This document shows, piece after piece, positions 26,156-44,129 of a DNA stretch of 64,000 bases. Both the position numbers and the translations under genes were made by a program. Positions within the stretch are counted from its first letter, which is position 1; each line of letters starts with the position of its first letter. This DNA is from Pirellulales bacterium (GTDB lineage: Bacteria; Planctomycetota; Planctomycetia; Pirellulales; JALHPA01): assembly GCA_033762255.1 (NCBI GenBank), contig JANRLT010000044.1, positions 1-64,000 on the forward strand, in the 5' to 3' direction. The notes under the pieces are model-generated. The model did not search any database. It was given only the letters and a program-made list of their open reading frames with translations, and was not told the origin of the DNA.

Positions 26156-26480
26156 AATTCAGCTCCGGAGGAGCGTCATCTTTATAGTAACCGACAACAC
26201 ACCACAAATATAATTATTTATTTATTCTTTTAATTGACATGTCCGCCGGGCATCGGCCAGCCCCCTAGCCCAATATTTTGATTACAATAGGTTCATGCGC
26301 GAATTTCGTATATTTCAATTTTTCGGAACCAAATCCTTGACGGGGCTGAGGGGAATGCATCTTATGGGAATAGCATTGAACGGCATCATAGCGGTTTTGA
26401 ACAGCGGAACGCGACTGAGAGGCAATATTTTGGTGTATTGGAGCAAAAATATGCCTGCAGGTGTTTTTCAAATGGCGGGG

Positions 26481-27893
26481 ATGCCATACCTTGATGGGTG
26501 TCCCCAGCGGGGTTCCGTTTCCCGCCCGATTCACCAATATGTGATGTTCTGTCTGGCGTTGCTCGCCTGTTTTACTGCTAATACTCCGGCCCAGGCGGTT
26601 GAAGCGCGGCTTTTGTACAAGTTGACCGCGCCTGACGGGCAGCCAAGCGAGGGTTTTGGCAGTCTATTAACTATAATCGATGGCGATTTATTGGTAACCG
26701 CACCTGCGGTTACAGAACATCTTCCTTCAGTGGATGTGCAAAATTTTGCAAATGGTAAAGCGTATCTGTTTGACGGAGCGACGGGTGCATACAAGTTCGC
26801 TTTAAGCAATCCCGAGCCGATGAACCTGGATCGATTCGCCGAAGCTGCGACGGGCGGCGATGGACAGGTGTTTCTATCGGCTATAGGGCTGCAGGAGCGC
26901 GTTTATGCGTTTAGCGCGGTCACGGGCAATTACCTGGGAAAAATTCAGAATCCAGAGCCTGTATCCGCGAAATTTGGCGGCAGCATAGCCTACGGATCGG
27001 GGAGTTTGCTGGTGGCGGCTCCTTCGTACAGTGATCCAGCGAACGATTACCAAAATGATCGCCTATATATCGGCCAAGTGTATCTATACAACGCGAATAC
27101 GAGGGAGTTAGAGCTAACCATACCCAATCCGGAGCCAAGCTGGGGCGACCTTTTTGGATATAGTGGCATGGTAGTTAATCGGGATTCAATTTTAATCAGT
27201 TGCGTTGCCGATGGTCCGTTAAATGAGCCAAGTAATTTTGCGGGGCGTGTGTGGGAATTAGATCGTCAGTCGGGTCAAGTGTTGGGTACACTGGAAAATC
27301 CCAACCATACAATGGAATTTTTAGAATGGGATTGGTTTGGCTATAACGTAGCTGCAAATGAGCAATTGATAGTTGTTAGTGCCGATGAAGAAGACACTAA
27401 TGGAATATACGGATCCGGGATGGTTTATATTTTTGATGCATTATCCGGAAATTTGTTGCACGCGCTCCACAGCCCTTTTCCTCGAGAAAATGCAGAGTTT
27501 GGTCAAACATTGGCGATTAATGCCGCTGGCCAAGTCCTGATTGGAGAAAGCAACTATTTGCAAAACGGTTTAAGTGGCACTTCTCAAGTCTATCTCTATG
27601 ACGGACACAGTGGGCAATTATTGGCAACGATAATAAACCCTGATTCATCTATCAGCTACACAGGGTCTGTCACGACTTTTGAAAACCGCATTTATATTAG
27701 TGCTCTCGGGACTGGAGCGAGTGACCTCCCCTACACAAGCTCGGTTTACGTCTATGAGATCATTCCCGAGCCGTCGTTTTGGATGCTGGCTGTGTTGGCA
27801 ATATCATATTTTGGAATAAGACACATTTTATGGAACGGGCCAAAGAGATTGAGCACTTGTGCGCCTCGTATTGCTCTAACGTCCCAAACTTAG
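26481..27893 (+). CDS. PEP-CTERM protein with beta-propeller-like repeats
   Basis: Exported protein sorted by an exosortase. A signal peptide (VMFCLALLACFTANTPAQA) is followed by about seven degenerate repeats of the form VYLYDGxTGxLLxTIxNPEP, a propeller-like FG-GAP-type architecture (about 45-410). The C-terminus IIPEPSFWMLAVLAISYFGIRHILW is a PEP-CTERM anchor, but a 20-residue basic tail follows it, longer than usual. The start is uncertain: the frame opens at 26295, and 26355, 26364, 26481 and 26544 are alternatives. I chose 26481 because it gives a signal peptide of about 40 residues. Likely a surface or extracellular-matrix protein. Confidence 0.8.
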   Translation: MPYLDGCPQRGSVSRPIHQYVMFCLALLACFTANTPAQAVEARLLYKLTAPDGQPSEGFGSLLTIIDGDLLVTAPAVTEHLPSVDVQNFANGKAYLFDGATGAYKFALSNPEPMNLDRFAEAATGGDGQVFLSAIGLQERVYAFSAVTGNYLGKIQNPEPVSAKFGGSIAYGSGSLLVAAPSYSDPANDYQNDRLYIGQVYLYNANTRELELTIPNPEPSWGDLFGYSGMVVNRDSILISCVADGPLNEPSNFAGRVWELDRQSGQVLGTLENPNHTMEFLEWDWFGYNVAANEQLIVVSADEEDTNGIYGSGMVYIFDALSGNLLHALHSPFPRENAEFGQTLAINAAGQVLIGESNYLQNGLSGTSQVYLYDGHSGQLLATIINPDSSISYTGSVTTFENRIYISALGTGASDLPYTSSVYVYEIIPEPSFWMLAVLAISYFGIRHILWNGPKRLSTCAPRIALTSQT

Positions 27894-38609: not shown

Positions 38610-40931
38610 CTACATTACCCAGTTAGCTTGAAACGTGTCCAGAAAACTATTGGCACGTGCCCGCCATACCCCGTTAGACGTGGCTGGTTTAATTCCTCGC
38701 TCAAAAGCCTCTTTAATTGCCCCAGACGAGGGAAGAAACAGTCTCTCTCTAGCTTTAAAGTCAGGGTTATGGCCTGCATAGGGCATGTCCGCATGCAGCA
38801 ATTCGTGGTACAAGAGAAACTCCATCACAAATTGAGGTACATCCGGTGAATTCAGAATTGGATTGATGCTGATACTGCAATCAGATTGTCGGTAAAAGCC
38901 AAACAAGCCCTTGCTGACTCGATTCATCCAACGCAGATCGCCCAGCTTTGGAGTTCCATTCGGAAAATGAGCTTTGGCTGCAAGCACAATGTCACGAATT
39001 TTCACGAGGTTATAACCTGCATCCTGGTTACCCCAGGAATTAGGTTTCGCGGTGGGAACAAGACTTAAAGTTTCAGGCTCCAATGGAAATGGAGGGGGAG
39101 TGATTAAGGTAGTTAATTCCCGAGAAACATCTTCTGCAAAGGCGTGAAAATTGTCGCGGTAAACAAAGCTACACGCTGGCAATCGATTCCAGATTTCTTG
39201 CATGCGCTCTTGCATCAGTTTTGGTGTCATTTGCTGTTCAAAGATTTGTTTTGCAAGCGCGGATGGGTCAAAATTCCTTTTATCATCAAAAGTGTATTGA
39301 TGGATCTCGATGTTATTACGCTTAGCCTCCAGTAACGATTGGATATCCAACCAAGATGGCAAAGGATCTGGAGCATCAACAAAATATTTTTGAATCAAGT
39401 TTCTAGCATAGTCCTCGGAGACATCCTCGGGAATATTTTTAGAAGCATTAAGGTGGGCCAATAGGGTATCATAACCTTCGCGTTGGTTTTCAAAAACCAT
39501 GACCGTCCGCTGATTCTGGTCGTCTTCGGATGTGTCCCACCAAATCAACCAGCCATGCGGCAGACATTGAAAGACGCCTTCTAAATGCGCCGCGCAGCTA
39601 TTTGAAACCAAGCGATAGGCTTCTCGAACCAATTCAATAGGAATCGGCAATGTGGAAATTGGCTTATATTTGTTGGGCGCGATGTCGTTGTCTTGGGCAT
39701 CTCCCAGCACATATTTGGGATCAAGTACATCAAATTGCTTCCAAGAATCAAGGAATGTAACAAGGTATGCCATGTCATTTCCGTTGGATTTCTTGCCCCG
39801 CAAGGCTCGTCCAACCATTTGTGTCATAAGAGTTTCGGACTTAGTGGGGCGCGCAATGAATACCGTGCGAGTATGAGGCGCATCAAACCCTTCGGTCAGC
39901 ATCTCGACATTGACAATCACATCCAGCTTCTTCTTTGCTTGATAGTGACTCATCACCTCCTGGGCATCGTTCCGGTTGTGGGTCACATAGTCGGCACGAA
40001 CCCCCGCCTTTTGAAATTCTTCCGCCAACGTGACACAATGCAGCGCATCCGCGGCAAAAACGATAGTTGGCCCATAACGGTCTTTATTCATGAGGTATTG
40101 ATTGACTATGAGTTTGTTCCGAGGTGCATTCTTCGCTAGGCGACCTAATACGCCGGGAGCGATTTCGCCCCAACGTGCTAAATGACGGTAATCTTCGGGC
40201 GTGAAATCTTTTTCGGCTTCAACCCGCGTATCGACAGTTTCAAAGCAAGGTACTGCCAGGACGTTTGCATCTATTAACTTTTGTCGATTGATTTGGTACA
40301 CAATCGACTCGTCGAATAAATTTGCCAATCGCTGCTGATCTTTGATATCGCCACGCACCGGCGTGGCAGTTAACCCCAGCACTTTGCAGTGTCGTTTCTT
40401 GAGACGACGCAACAGTCGAGCATAACTGGCAGCACTGGCGTGATGGGCTTCATCGACGACTACAAATGTTCCTTGGTCTGAATCATCGATAAATAAATCG
40501 ACATAATCGAGGTTGTCTTGTCGAACCGCGCTTTGCATCGACGAAAATACCACATCGTGCTTTTGCGTGACCATGGACCAAGTAGAATCACTGGAAGAAA
40601 TGGCAATTAATCCTAATTTTTGCTTCGGATACACTGAGTTGCCCCACTGGTAGAAAGTGTCTAATGCCTGGCGAAGCAAACTACGACGATGGGATAGCCA
40701 TAGCACCCGCCCGCCCATCCGAACATGATGTTCGAGCAGCCAATTGGCCGCAACCACAGTCTTGCCAGCACCAGTTGGCATCACGATCATGCCAGTCTGA
40801 TGTTCTTGGTCAAGAAAGTGTTTCGTCATGGCTTGCCAAGCAGCAACCTGATGATCTCGAGGTTTGTTCGGGTACTGCGTATTCGCCGGATTTAGCAAAA
40901 CTTCGGATTCCCAAGTTTTCATCGTCGACAT
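38610..40931 (-). CDS. SF2 helicase fused to a C-terminal HELLH zinc-peptidase domain
   Basis: A 773-residue fusion. N-terminal DEAD/DEAH (ResIII-type) helicase: Walker A MPTGAGKT (about 51), VVDEAHHAS (motif II), GLTATPVRG (motif III), IVFAADALHCVTLA and LMTQMVGRALRGKK (motif VI). After a 250-residue linker comes a metal-binding block HELLHADMPYAGHNPDF (from residue 709), an HExxH motif with a third His eight residues on, as in SprT/WSS1- and YgjP-like metallopeptidases. The ATG at 40931 follows TTGGAGC; an earlier start at 40991 is weaker. It may remove DNA-bound proteins or act in defence. The 115-residue gene upstream is probably co-transcribed. The region is AT-richer than its flanks, suggesting transfer. 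Confidence 0.82.
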   Translation of the reverse strand: MSTMKTWESEVLLNPANTQYPNKPRDHQVAAWQAMTKHFLDQEHQTGMIVMPTGAGKTVVAANWLLEHHVRMGGRVLWLSHRRSLLRQALDTFYQWGNSVYPKQKLGLIAISSSDSTWSMVTQKHDVVFSSMQSAVRQDNLDYVDLFIDDSDQGTFVVVDEAHHASAASYARLLRRLKKRHCKVLGLTATPVRGDIKDQQRLANLFDESIVYQINRQKLIDANVLAVPCFETVDTRVEAEKDFTPEDYRHLARWGEIAPGVLGRLAKNAPRNKLIVNQYLMNKDRYGPTIVFAADALHCVTLAEEFQKAGVRADYVTHNRNDAQEVMSHYQAKKKLDVIVNVEMLTEGFDAPHTRTVFIARPTKSETLMTQMVGRALRGKKSNGNDMAYLVTFLDSWKQFDVLDPKYVLGDAQDNDIAPNKYKPISTLPIPIELVREAYRLVSNSCAAHLEGVFQCLPHGWLIWWDTSEDDQNQRTVMVFENQREGYDTLLAHLNASKNIPEDVSEDYARNLIQKYFVDAPDPLPSWLDIQSLLEAKRNNIEIHQYTFDDKRNFDPSALAKQIFEQQMTPKLMQERMQEIWNRLPACSFVYRDNFHAFAEDVSRELTTLITPPPFPLEPETLSLVPTAKPNSWGNQDAGYNLVKIRDIVLAAKAHFPNGTPKLGDLRWMNRVSKGLFGFYRQSDCSISINPILNSPDVPQFVMEFLLYHELLHADMPYAGHNPDFKARERLFLPSSGAIKEAFERGIKPATSNGVWRARANSFLDTFQANWVM

Positions 40932-41025
40932 CGTTTGCTCCAAAAGAATTCTAGGGCAGTGAAATGAAATCTGTGTACTGTGACTAAACAAGCGAATTCA
41001 TGCTGCAGCTTTGAGTTAGGTCAAT

Positions 41026-41373
41026 TTAGACGCCTTTCGAGGGTCTTGTGATCGGTGAATTGGCTGGCAGATGAAAACAGCCATGTCCATCGAAGCGGAC
41101 GCTGACAAGTCCTGTCTGGTAGGTCGAATCAATTGAAATACGGACTTTTTCGGGTTGCAGCATAGCTACACGTTGGATAGCCCTAAGTTTCAACTGCGAA
41201 AAGCTTTGCGCTGCGCGTAAATGGCCTTGTTTGGCTGAAATCCGACGCAATTCGGAAGCAACACGGGCACGTTCCCAGGCGGCAACCGCAGCATTGTTCC
41301 GGGTGGCTTGGATGGCGTCACGGAATGTTTGGGGGGGATTTTTCATCAGAATTGTTGGGTTTTTTAATTCCAT
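41026..41373 (-). CDS. Hypothetical protein upstream of the helicase-protease
   Basis: A 115-residue basic protein, unrecognised. The N-terminal two-thirds (about 15-70) looks helical, with many A, R and Q (VAAWERARVASELRRISAKQ), and the C-terminal third contains a beta-like VRISIDSTYQTGLVSVRFDG. It ends 95 bases before the helicase start on the same strand, so an operon is likely. The start at 41373 (MELKNPTIL) is chosen over an internal Met at residue 10. It could be an antitoxin-like or adaptor protein; no evidence distinguishes these. Confidence 0.6.
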   Translation of the reverse strand: MELKNPTILMKNPPQTFRDAIQATRNNAAVAAWERARVASELRRISAKQGHLRAAQSFSQLKLRAIQRVAMLQPEKVRISIDSTYQTGLVSVRFDGHGCFHLPANSPITRPSKGV

Positions 41374-41677
41374 CTTGGGTTATGCGTCAGACCGACAATT
41401 AACCTAAACGAAGAAAAATCGGAAGCGGTCCGTTTTGTTGTTAAAATCCATTTCAGATTCCTCACAATCACTAAAATCTCGAAGGATACGCCTTTATCCT
41501 AATCCATAAAAAAATCTTGGCATCGGCAACTTAGCAGTAAACCGTCTAGGCTGAATTGCGCGACCTGCAAGGCCGCCTATGGTTTTTTCCTAGACTGATA
41601 CTAGGCATTTTGCGTTTGGAGGATTAAAATATTAACCATATTCCAATACGTAGCCAGTTGAACCGGAGCCAAAGGCG
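41374..41677. promoter_or_regulatory. Divergent promoter region of the accessory block
   Basis: About 300 AT-rich bases between the two divergent operons. A palindrome CCTAG-ACTGATA-CTAGG lies at 41589-41605, about 75 bases before the sigma gene, with a TCTAGG half-site near 41547. Its CCTAG arms echo the CCTAG-containing repeat at 38537. An unused-looking GGAGG (41617) precedes no start in a good position. Confidence 0.45.
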
Positions 41678-42283
41678 ATGCAACGCAAATATGGCGATAC
41701 TACCCGAATGCAATTGTGCATTGATCGCTTGCAGAAAGGGGATGAATCTGCGCGTAAAGACCTTTTGGAACGCGCCCAAAAGCGACTCAAGGCATATGCC
41801 ACTAAAATGCTTAAAAGTTTTCCATTAGTAAAAGGCAGATATGATATTGATGCTCTTGTTAGCGATGTGAATGCACGCCTCCTTGTATCATTCAAGAATC
41901 AACGAAAAATTAATGATGTTGAGCATTTCATGTATACCGTTGCCAAGACTATCCGATGTCAGCTTATCGATTTACACAGAAAGCTAAAGAAACAAAGCGA
42001 GAAGGTCCAGGTACAAAACGACTCATCTGCTCTAAGTAAAGCAAAGGCAAAAACAATGGGACCTGTCAAACGCGCTGAAACCACAGAAGCGGCTAGTTTG
42101 ATGCATTCGATCATTGGCACGTTGAAAATAGATCATCGTCAATTACTGGAAATGCGGTTCTATGGTGGTCTATCACTCTCAGAGATTGCTTCCACTCTCG
42201 GAATTCCGATAAGCACGATTAAGCGTCGATATGAAGATGCAAAGAAAGAAGCATCGAGGAGGTTAAATGGAAACCAAAACTAA
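41678..42283 (+). CDS. ECF-type RNA polymerase sigma factor
   Basis: A 201-residue extracytoplasmic-function-like sigma factor. Region 2 is about 12-95 (DALVSDVNARLLVSFKNQRKINDVEHFMYTVAKTIRCQLIDLHRK), and region 4 is about 140-195 (LLEMRFYGGLSLSEIASTLGIPISTIKRRYEDAKKEASRRL), an HTH for the -35 element. It lacks a C-terminal sensory extension. Its last 17 bases overlap the kinase gene that follows, so it is translationally coupled to a probable regulator kinase; ECF-kinase pairs are known in planctomycetes. No anti-sigma factor is adjacent. Confidence 0.88.
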   Translation: MQRKYGDTTRMQLCIDRLQKGDESARKDLLERAQKRLKAYATKMLKSFPLVKGRYDIDALVSDVNARLLVSFKNQRKINDVEHFMYTVAKTIRCQLIDLHRKLKKQSEKVQVQNDSSALSKAKAKTMGPVKRAETTEAASLMHSIIGTLKIDHRQLLEMRFYGGLSLSEIASTLGIPISTIKRRYEDAKKEASRRLNGNQN

Positions 42284-43820
42284 CACTAGCCAACTCGATA
42301 TCGAGAAAGCCTTTCATGAATGGAATTCAAATGGTGGTCAACTAAAGCCTCTAAAACTTCTACGTAACCGGCCAGACATTCAAGAACAGCTTGACCAACA
42401 GATTCAAGCTGTCAATACGGTCAGCGGTCTGCTTAGGTTAACTTTTTTTGATCAACAAATAACGGAACAGTTATCAAGTGCTACCAAAGAACTTGATAAG
42501 GTCAAAGATAATATCAAAACACTTCTTGGGGGTAACTATAAATTAGTTATGGTGCTTGGGAGCGGTGGTTTTGCCCATGTGTTTCTTGCACAGCAACTAA
42601 AACCTACGCTGCGTCAAGTGGCCATTAAAGTCATTTGCAATCAACTTCGCGAACGTATCGAACGCGAAGCAAAGGCAATGCAGAAAATTCAGTCACCCTA
42701 TGTCGTGAAAATTTACGATGACCCAATAATTTTCAATCACTTATCATTTCTTATAATGGAATTTGTTGAGGGCGGCTCACTTGAACAATACATTTTAAGA
42801 GCGGATAGACACGTTGACAAAGAAAAAGTTGCTGAATGGATGATCCAAGTCGCGCGGGGCATGCATGAAGCTGAGAAACTGCAAATTACGCATCGTGATC
42901 TTAAGCCTTCAAATATCCTGATTGATAAACTTGGAAATGCAAAAATAGCTGATTTTGGAATAGCTATTGGTAATTCCACTTCACTAGCAACTTCTTACCA
43001 AGGGGTTGCGGGTACATATGCGTTCATGGCCCCGGAGCAGTTTAGAAAATCAAGTGCAGTTGATACTCGAGCGGACATCTACAGCTACGGCGCTACTTTC
43101 TATTATGTATTGAAAGGCGAGCCCCCAGGTCTCGCAAGTTTCATTAAGGCACCAGATGTGCGCAGCCCTTTGCTTAATGACATATTTGAGATTTTGCAAA
43201 AATGTCTCAAAAGGAATCCAAGAGAGCGGTATCAGTCTTTTGAAGAAATCATTAACGCTTTGAATAAACTCCCTGCTTCCAAACAGCCAACGAAGGTGGC
43301 TTCGATTCGCAGTCCAGTTTCACAAAATGCGCGGACTAAGAAATCAAAGCTTACAGATTCACTGCCGCCCCTCTGGGTCTACAAATGCAATGCAAAATCA
43401 GAGGCCGCAGGTGATTGGAAAAAACATGTTTTTAACAAAAACAGCAAAGTAATTTCTTGGGGTCACGTACACGATGATATCAAAGAAGGCTCAATCCAAA
43501 GTCATGCGAGTCGAAAACTTGTACTTGAGCAGATGCAAGTTGGTGATTTGGTCCTTGCGTGGCAAAGTGATCGAAAGCAAGCCATTGGTCTTTGTCGCGT
43601 TTATGATTTAAATGTCAAAGGAAAAGTTACAAGAATCGTCTTGGAAAAAGTGTTCAAATTCGCTCATCCTGTCAACTTGTTGGAATATAAAAATAGTGAA
43701 CCTGTTTTGATGAATTGTTCTGCATTTAAGCAAGGTGCTGGCTCAATATTCGAGACAACTCCGGATGAGGCCAAAAAAATCCTAGAAATCTGTGGTATCG
43801 ATTGGCGGGATGTTTGCTAA
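42267..43820 (+). CDS. Soluble Ser/Thr kinase with C-terminal EVE/PUA-like domain
   Basis: A 517-residue fusion. Residues about 1-88 are helical and unassigned. The kinase domain (about 90-335) has LGSGGFAHVFLA (P-loop), Lys121 in VAIKVI, HRDLKPSN (209-216), DFG (229-231) and FMAPEQF. No membrane segment follows, unlike PASTA-type kinases. After a 30-residue basic linker, residues about 368-512 read as an EVE-like (PUA superfamily) domain: PPLWVYKCNAKSE, WKKHVFNK, MQVGDLVLAWQSDRKQAIGLCRVYDL, then FKQGAGSIFETTPDEAKKIL. EVE domains recognise modified bases or RNA. The start ATG follows a strong GAGGAGG inside the overlapping sigma gene. The family assignment of the kinase is firm; the EVE assignment is good but by eye. 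Confidence 0.8.
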   Translation: METKTNTSQLDIEKAFHEWNSNGGQLKPLKLLRNRPDIQEQLDQQIQAVNTVSGLLRLTFFDQQITEQLSSATKELDKVKDNIKTLLGGNYKLVMVLGSGGFAHVFLAQQLKPTLRQVAIKVICNQLRERIEREAKAMQKIQSPYVVKIYDDPIIFNHLSFLIMEFVEGGSLEQYILRADRHVDKEKVAEWMIQVARGMHEAEKLQITHRDLKPSNILIDKLGNAKIADFGIAIGNSTSLATSYQGVAGTYAFMAPEQFRKSSAVDTRADIYSYGATFYYVLKGEPPGLASFIKAPDVRSPLLNDIFEILQKCLKRNPRERYQSFEEIINALNKLPASKQPTKVASIRSPVSQNARTKKSKLTDSLPPLWVYKCNAKSEAAGDWKKHVFNKNSKVISWGHVHDDIKEGSIQSHASRKLVLEQMQVGDLVLAWQSDRKQAIGLCRVYDLNVKGKVTRIVLEKVFKFAHPVNLLEYKNSEPVLMNCSAFKQGAGSIFETTPDEAKKILEICGIDWRDVC

Positions 43821-43861: not shown

Positions 43862-44121
43862 GCTACCACTGGAACTTGTTCCAAGGCGGCACAGCCATAG
43901 AAAGCATTATTCGTGTAACGCATGGCAAACCATACCCGACCTAATTCCATATCAGGAGAGTTGGTAGCCCCAGTATCTCACCTCTTACCTGCCACCGTAA
44001 CTTGTTCCGGTATGCACAGCAAGAGAATCACACGGCGCAAATAGTCTCCATGTTGGTGTGGTAAAAAGCAAAAGCATGCTTCTTACCGCTGCACGGCCTA
44101 AAAACAAGTTCCTTGGTTACT
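43862..44121. repeat. Three copies of a 35-45-nt repeat downstream of the kinase
   Basis: Copy A (about 43863-43907) centres on CTACCACTGGAACTTGTTCC; copy B (about 43989-44024) on CTGCCACCGTAACTTGTTCC, direct; copy C (about 44074-44118) is inverted, its minus strand holding AACCAAGGAACTTGTTTTTA. A and C also share a downstream CAGC...AAGCAT segment. The gap has no open reading frame of note. It may be part of a structured RNA or a recombination site. Confidence 0.55.
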
Positions 44122-44129
44122 CGCAATGG

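Follow-up and report, generated by a model that had tools for sequence, protein, structure and literature searches.

Organization and composition of the island

Two divergent operons in a planctomycete genome place a helicase with a protease motif beside a sigma factor and a kinase ending in a domain of the EVE family, probably a reader of modified bases. An earlier note on this DNA proposed that all four form one antiphage system, controlled through the reader, the kinase and the sigma factor. The features below are numbered along the window, that is, the whole stretch of 64,000 nucleotides that was analysed. The two operons lie in one AT-rich block, flanked on one side by a UvrD/PcrA-type helicase gene and on the other by a SASA-type esterase gene and a threonyl-tRNA synthetase-like gene. 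The closest genomes and the ECF content of the host also suggest a planctomycete.

38610..40991, minus strand: SF2 (ResIII/RadD-like) helicase with predicted C-terminal minigluzincin protease (P0001)
38613..39017, minus strand: predicted minigluzincin domain, residues 659-793 (PDB profile matches and invariant motif)
38793-38807, minus strand: HELLH, helicase residues 729-733
39777..40865, minus strand: two RecA-like helicase domains with intact Walker A and DEAH motifs
41026..41373, minus strand: 115-aa ORF (P0002), upstream of the helicase gene
41374..41677, no strand: divergent intergenic region
41678..42283, plus strand: ECF sigma factor (P0003), 201 aa (Sigma70_ECF, 52.3 bits)
42267..43820, plus strand: Ser/Thr kinase with C-terminal EVE domain (P0004), 517 aa
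42537..43235, plus strand: Hanks-type kinase domain, residues 91-323 (Pkinase, 140.8 bits)
43431..43787, plus strand: EVE domain, kinase residues ~389-507
43958..44125, no strand: decayed copy of a palindromic repeat that is dispersed in the host genome, flanking the island

The description of an AT-richer block with two divergent operons is borne out: the four ORFs lie at the positions the earlier note gave, and the GC content of the block is 0.41-0.49, against about 0.55-0.62 in its surroundings. GC3 is mostly 0.65-0.77 in the neighbouring genes and 0.36-0.47 in the island genes. With foreign composition in all four genes, the island is best read as horizontally acquired. GC3 is also unequal across the operons, at 0.47 in both the helicase gene and the small ORF and 0.36-0.39 in the other operon (kinase 0.36, sigma factor 0.39). 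The divergent region contains no ECF/sigma-70 promoter patterns beyond chance and no textbook ECF pattern, and no promoter common to both operons was found in it. P0002 had no family in the domain search, with weak partial matches only, and this orphan may or may not be a real gene.

Elsewhere in the window, positions 26295-27893 hold a further AT-richer ORF of 532 aa with a GC3 of 0.47. The palindromic intergenic element near the island is roughly 160 bp long, with inverted ends TAGCGGGTAGCC / GGCTACCCGCTA and the unit GGAACTTGTTCC; used as a query, it gave 39 partial matches in the host genome (G000; contigs C60, C6, C33 and C1).

A predicted minigluzincin at the C-terminus of an SF2 helicase

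The helicase ORF is 793 aa long from a TTG start. An ATG at 40931 preceded by GGAG is the likelier true start and would give 773 aa, the length in the earlier note. Pfam recognizes ResIII (89.8 bits) and Helicase_C (40.4) in this protein; the other domain calls of that note (HELLH protease, ECF sigma factor, Ser/Thr kinase and EVE) likewise held up in the Pfam and PDB profile searches. Searched as a single sequence, the C-terminus gave a sub-threshold YgjP-like match only. A profile of eight aligned homologues, used in an hmmsearch of the PDB, matched MJ1213 (4qhj) with an E of 2.3e-6 and projannalysin (4jix) with an E of 7.5e-4. Residues H729, E730, L732, H733, H741 and E749 are invariant across nine helicase homologues, as are W688 and N710. 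Because the zinc-site residues are invariant in the homologues and the profile matches solved minigluzincins, HELLH is not a chance motif. The domain has the HExxH zinc site, the further ligand residues and the homology to solved members by which minigluzincins are recognized, and we predict from its sequence that it is a minigluzincin metallopeptidase.

The known minigluzincins (MJ1213, projannalysin and proabylysin, with their relatives Wss1 and Spartan) have the same HExxH and further invariant H and E, but that of the island is attached C-terminally to an SF2 helicase. We found no description of such a fusion in the literature searched, whose coverage is incomplete. The RadD/ResIII-type SF2 helicases with a C-terminal HNH (from Deinococcus, Nostoc, Clostridia and others) resemble the island protein in layout and are about 30% identical to it in the core, and differ in carrying a nuclease where the island protein has the predicted protease.

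Distribution and phylogeny of the helicase family

Most relatives of the helicase core end in HNH, among them those on Deinococcus plasmids, those in the planctomycetes G198 and G510 and those at most of 80 genome loci. The predicted helicase-minigluzincin proteins are a rare family across several phyla. They occur in Myxococcota (L234, and L043 and L044 in one MAG), Sandaracinaceae (L045), Acidimicrobiia (L047), a genome drawn from a clostridial phylum (L219), Bacillota (L046 and L048-L050) and a contig of the viral collection (L123). The closest homologues are the myxococcotal L043, L044 and L234, with up to about 55% identity to the island helicase; L043 and L044 are 54% identical to it over the alignment. 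In a quick tree built from 87 helicase cores, the twelve helicase-minigluzincins fall in a few adjacent clades with two label changes and cluster near HNH-type relatives; the island helicase shares a group, with a support of 100, with L234, L043 and L044. No close helicase-protease was found in the other planctomycetes searched, genome and viral contigs scanned with the helicase as a single protein gave no relatives, and neither a minigluzincin nor a reader domain was present at 157 viral loci with related helicases. Myxococcota also have proteins of ~300-390 aa (L222-L226, L231 and L232) in which an unknown N-terminal region is followed by a C-terminal minigluzincin.

Gene neighbourhoods of the closest homologues

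The proposal of one new four-gene system is not supported by the closest homologues: L043, L044 and L234 have no sigma factor, EVE kinase or small-protein homologue nearby. Near L043 and L044 lie instead genes for a DUF4145-like protein and for another helicase, of the DEAD type. The two loci are paralogous cassettes in their MAG, in which one more large gene accompanies those for the helicase-minigluzincin, the DUF4145-like protein and the DEAD-type helicase. A kinase beside L044 was rejected as a conserved partner and is taken as a coincidence, since it has no EVE or adjoining sigma factor and the paralogous L043 has no kinase. By the earlier note's own account its proposal would fail if homologues of the two operons never co-occurred; no second case was found in the phylum and order samples or in the homologue neighbourhoods, and by that measure the four-gene unit fails. 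One antiphage system comprising all four genes is a rather unlikely reading. It is favoured by the layout and composition of the island, and by a functional analogue in Firmicutes that consists of an HTH-like gene, a reader and a helicase-protease, but it also has to account for the lack of a shared promoter motif and for a sigma factor without the presumed phosphosite.

The same neighbourhoods bear on a simpler possibility, that two unrelated acquisitions happen to be neighbours, one a stand-alone helicase-protease and the other an independent ECF sigma-kinase pair with its own regulon. The absence of the second operon near the closest helicase homologues would be expected in that case, ECF-kinase pairs are routine in planctomycetes (PMC8999054), and GC3 differs between the operons. 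The divergent layout inside one AT-rich block argues against it, as does the repeated finding of reader-type genes next to the helicase-minigluzincins of other lineages. We consider it only a little short of an even chance.

Association with putative base readers and restriction genes

Neighbours of other kinds were seen as well. By eye, L234 has a PLD-like ORF downstream and L219 has HNH and DUF262-like genes; L047 lies near Hsp70 and a DrmD-like gene. In L046 and L123 a reader gene abuts the helicase start, with an HTH-like gene upstream, while in L048-L050 a reader of the same type lies directly downstream of the helicase, and in L049 the HTH-like part sits on the helicase ORF. The L045 neighbour is an EVE-like gene whose Pfam score of 15.1 bits, below the cut-off, makes it a weak match. 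Adjoining the L045 helicase-minigluzincin is also a gene for a Ser/Thr kinase with a fused NERD domain (L045:7194-8696). At L220:6924-8141 a minigluzincin (E 1.6e-15) is fused to the Firmicutes-type reader (E 1.6e-5) and adjoins HsdS-/HsdR-like type I restriction genes. At L069:6289-9151 an HNH-type SF2 helicase has a Firmicutes-type reader gene 37 nt upstream, and this locus is the nuclease counterpart of the pair formed by a reader and a helicase-protease.

A reader-type gene stands beside six of the 11 other helicase-minigluzincins and one of 72 other helicases (Fisher p 8e-6, rising to 0.003 when near copies are collapsed), figures that are suggestive and no proof, as the flanks are unequal and the rows related. 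Five of the six cases have a YTH/EVE-like domain according to a structural model and the sixth is the weak EVE match of L045. The count is not blind: the L045 gene is part of the EVE profile, so that its support is its Pfam score, and the five Firmicutes and viral reader genes come from the family that built the reader profile. The associations span about three lineages besides the island. Adjacency and the one fusion speak for base readers being linked to helicase-minigluzincins in general, and lend unexpected support to the idea that the helicase-protease may work with a reader of modified bases.

The Firmicutes reader, which lies outside the window, is also the N-terminal part of HNH proteins and DUF3883 proteins encoded on plasmids and viral contigs, and in L251 it is joined, by eye, to an EVE-like N-terminus. 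Its AlphaFold model has a pLDDT of 89.7 and a pTM of 0.90. Foldseek returned nothing significant with this model; in VIA-align the top rows were almost only YTH, EVE and McrB-N, at Z of 4.6-6.1, below the level called safe. Profile comparison gave no sequence match between this reader and EVE. From the model we regard the fold of the reader, with moderate confidence, as probably YTH/EVE-like; YTH is the PUA-like domain closest to EVE according to the EVE/YTH/DCD survey (PMC7641849).

These contexts also bear on a role in repair, in which the protein would clear DNA-protein crosslinks like Spartan or Wss1 and be induced by damage through the sigma factor and kinase. The minigluzincin fold is common to Wss1 and Spartan (PMC4559962) and the helicase core is RadD-like, but identity with the RadD repair helicase was rejected at a score of 117.4 against an NCBIfam equivalog cut-off of 720. 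The sporadic, horizontally spread distribution, the restriction-gene contexts and the HNH in place of the protease in relatives also argue against a repair role, which we regard as distinctly unlikely. Defence against foreign nucleic acid is the most likely role, because relatives of the family swap the protease for HNH and often adjoin EVE/YTH-like readers or restriction genes. For the island itself such a role is plausible from context.

The ECF sigma factor and the EVE kinase

The kinase ORF overlaps that of the sigma factor by 17 nt. Its catalytic motifs (GSGGFAHV, VAIK, HRDLKPSN, DFG and APE) are all present and no membrane segment is evident. Of the earlier assignment of an EVE/PUA-like C-terminus the domain stands, and its span is corrected to residues ~389-507, within the 365-512 that the note marked for checking. 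EVE (Pfam PF01878) scores 24.2 and 26.3 bits, above the gathering cut-off of 23, and the canonical EVE motif NYQARN is SHASRK in the island kinase. The EVE domain of the kinase had no counterpart in the 293 other genomes of the phylum sample or the 47 others of the order sample (about 340 planctomycetes searched), it had no sequence match in plasmids or the PDB, and a single-protein scan of viral contigs gave no relatives of the kinase. The literature searched, again with incomplete coverage, held no description of a Ser/Thr kinase-EVE fusion, and a term search of the EVE/YTH/DCD survey (PMC7641849) did not find this combination.

Sigma-kinase pairs are routine in planctomycetes. A kinase gene lies close downstream in the same direction in ~12 of the 20 short loci of planctomycete sigma relatives. 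The EcfP-PknT type sigma factors and planctomycete groups ECF59, ECF61, ECF62 and ECF217 (PMC8999054) overlap or adjoin a Ser/Thr kinase gene as in the island, but have STTA or xTDD, with a Thr, where the island has DIDA and a soluble kinase with an EVE sensor. In EcfP the second Thr of STTA is phosphorylated (PMC8999054). The sigma2.2 motif of the island protein, equivalent to DAED, has no Thr; its relatives have xTDD, and the Thr before the acidic pair is kept in 20 planctomycete relatives. Of the features of a phosphorylation-activated sigma factor of the EcfP type, the island thus has the adjacent Ser/Thr kinase gene and lacks the motif Thr/Ser. The island sigma factor may therefore be independent of this phosphorylation, or controlled elsewhere.

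Two known defence systems were considered. The kinase resembles the MAD6 model of the MADS antiphage system (PADLOC, 221.8 bits), but membership was rejected, with a MAD6 NCBIfam score of 141.8 against a cut-off of 460 and neither a methyltransferase nor any other MADS gene among the four. In EVE/YTH/DCD modification-dependent restriction, as set out in the survey (PMC7641849), an EVE-family reader stands beside a nucleic-acid motor as in the island, where the reader is on a Ser/Thr kinase. The nuclease domain expected of modification-dependent (type IV-like) restriction is missing from the island: the domain search found no nuclease family in its four proteins.

A proposed two-module island

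As the best explanation we propose, with chances that we see as evenly poised, a horizontally acquired island of two modules, a helicase-minigluzincin effector and a reader-kinase-sigma regulator. In the first module, for which we infer motor and protease activity, the SF2 motor would translocate on nucleic acid carrying the tethered minigluzincin, which would cleave proteins met there, such as a regulator or the replication or packaging proteins of foreign elements. The second would be a planctomycete-style ECF sigma-kinase pair with EVE in place of the usual sensor; a modified base, the presumed ligand, would be bound by EVE and switch the kinase, which would act through the sigma factor on transcription. 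The two operons may function together, and control of the first module by the second is the least certain part.

The two-module reading draws on the zinc-site residues and minigluzincin matches, the clustering near HNH-type relatives in the tree, the restriction or defence genes next to L047, L219 and L220 and the PLD-like gene beside L234, the reader adjacency, the L220 fusion and the fold of the Firmicutes reader, the above-threshold EVE of the kinase, the kinases downstream of sigma relatives and the foreign composition. Against it count the closest helicase homologues, which have no reader, sigma factor or EVE kinase nearby; the few reader lineages, with a weak EVE in L045 and a Firmicutes reader of low Z and no EVE profile match; and the GC3 difference between the operons, the sigma factor without Thr and the lack of a shared promoter.

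A bolder extension is modification-dependent defence with a protease effector, in which an EVE/YTH-family reader would recognize modified foreign nucleic acid and work with the SF2 motor-minigluzincin to destroy bound proteins, the reader being built, in this planctomycete, into a kinase acting through an ECF sigma factor. We consider it unlikely as a whole, although the island may be a rare variant of the link between readers and helicase-minigluzincins with the reader on a kinase. If true, restriction-like defence would have a branch directed at the proteins bound to marked nucleic acid, which cuts these and not the nucleic acid itself, nuclease and protease effectors would swap on one type of motor, and base-modification sensing would be tied to transcription via a kinase and sigma factor. 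Both ideas are testable with small heterologous constructs.
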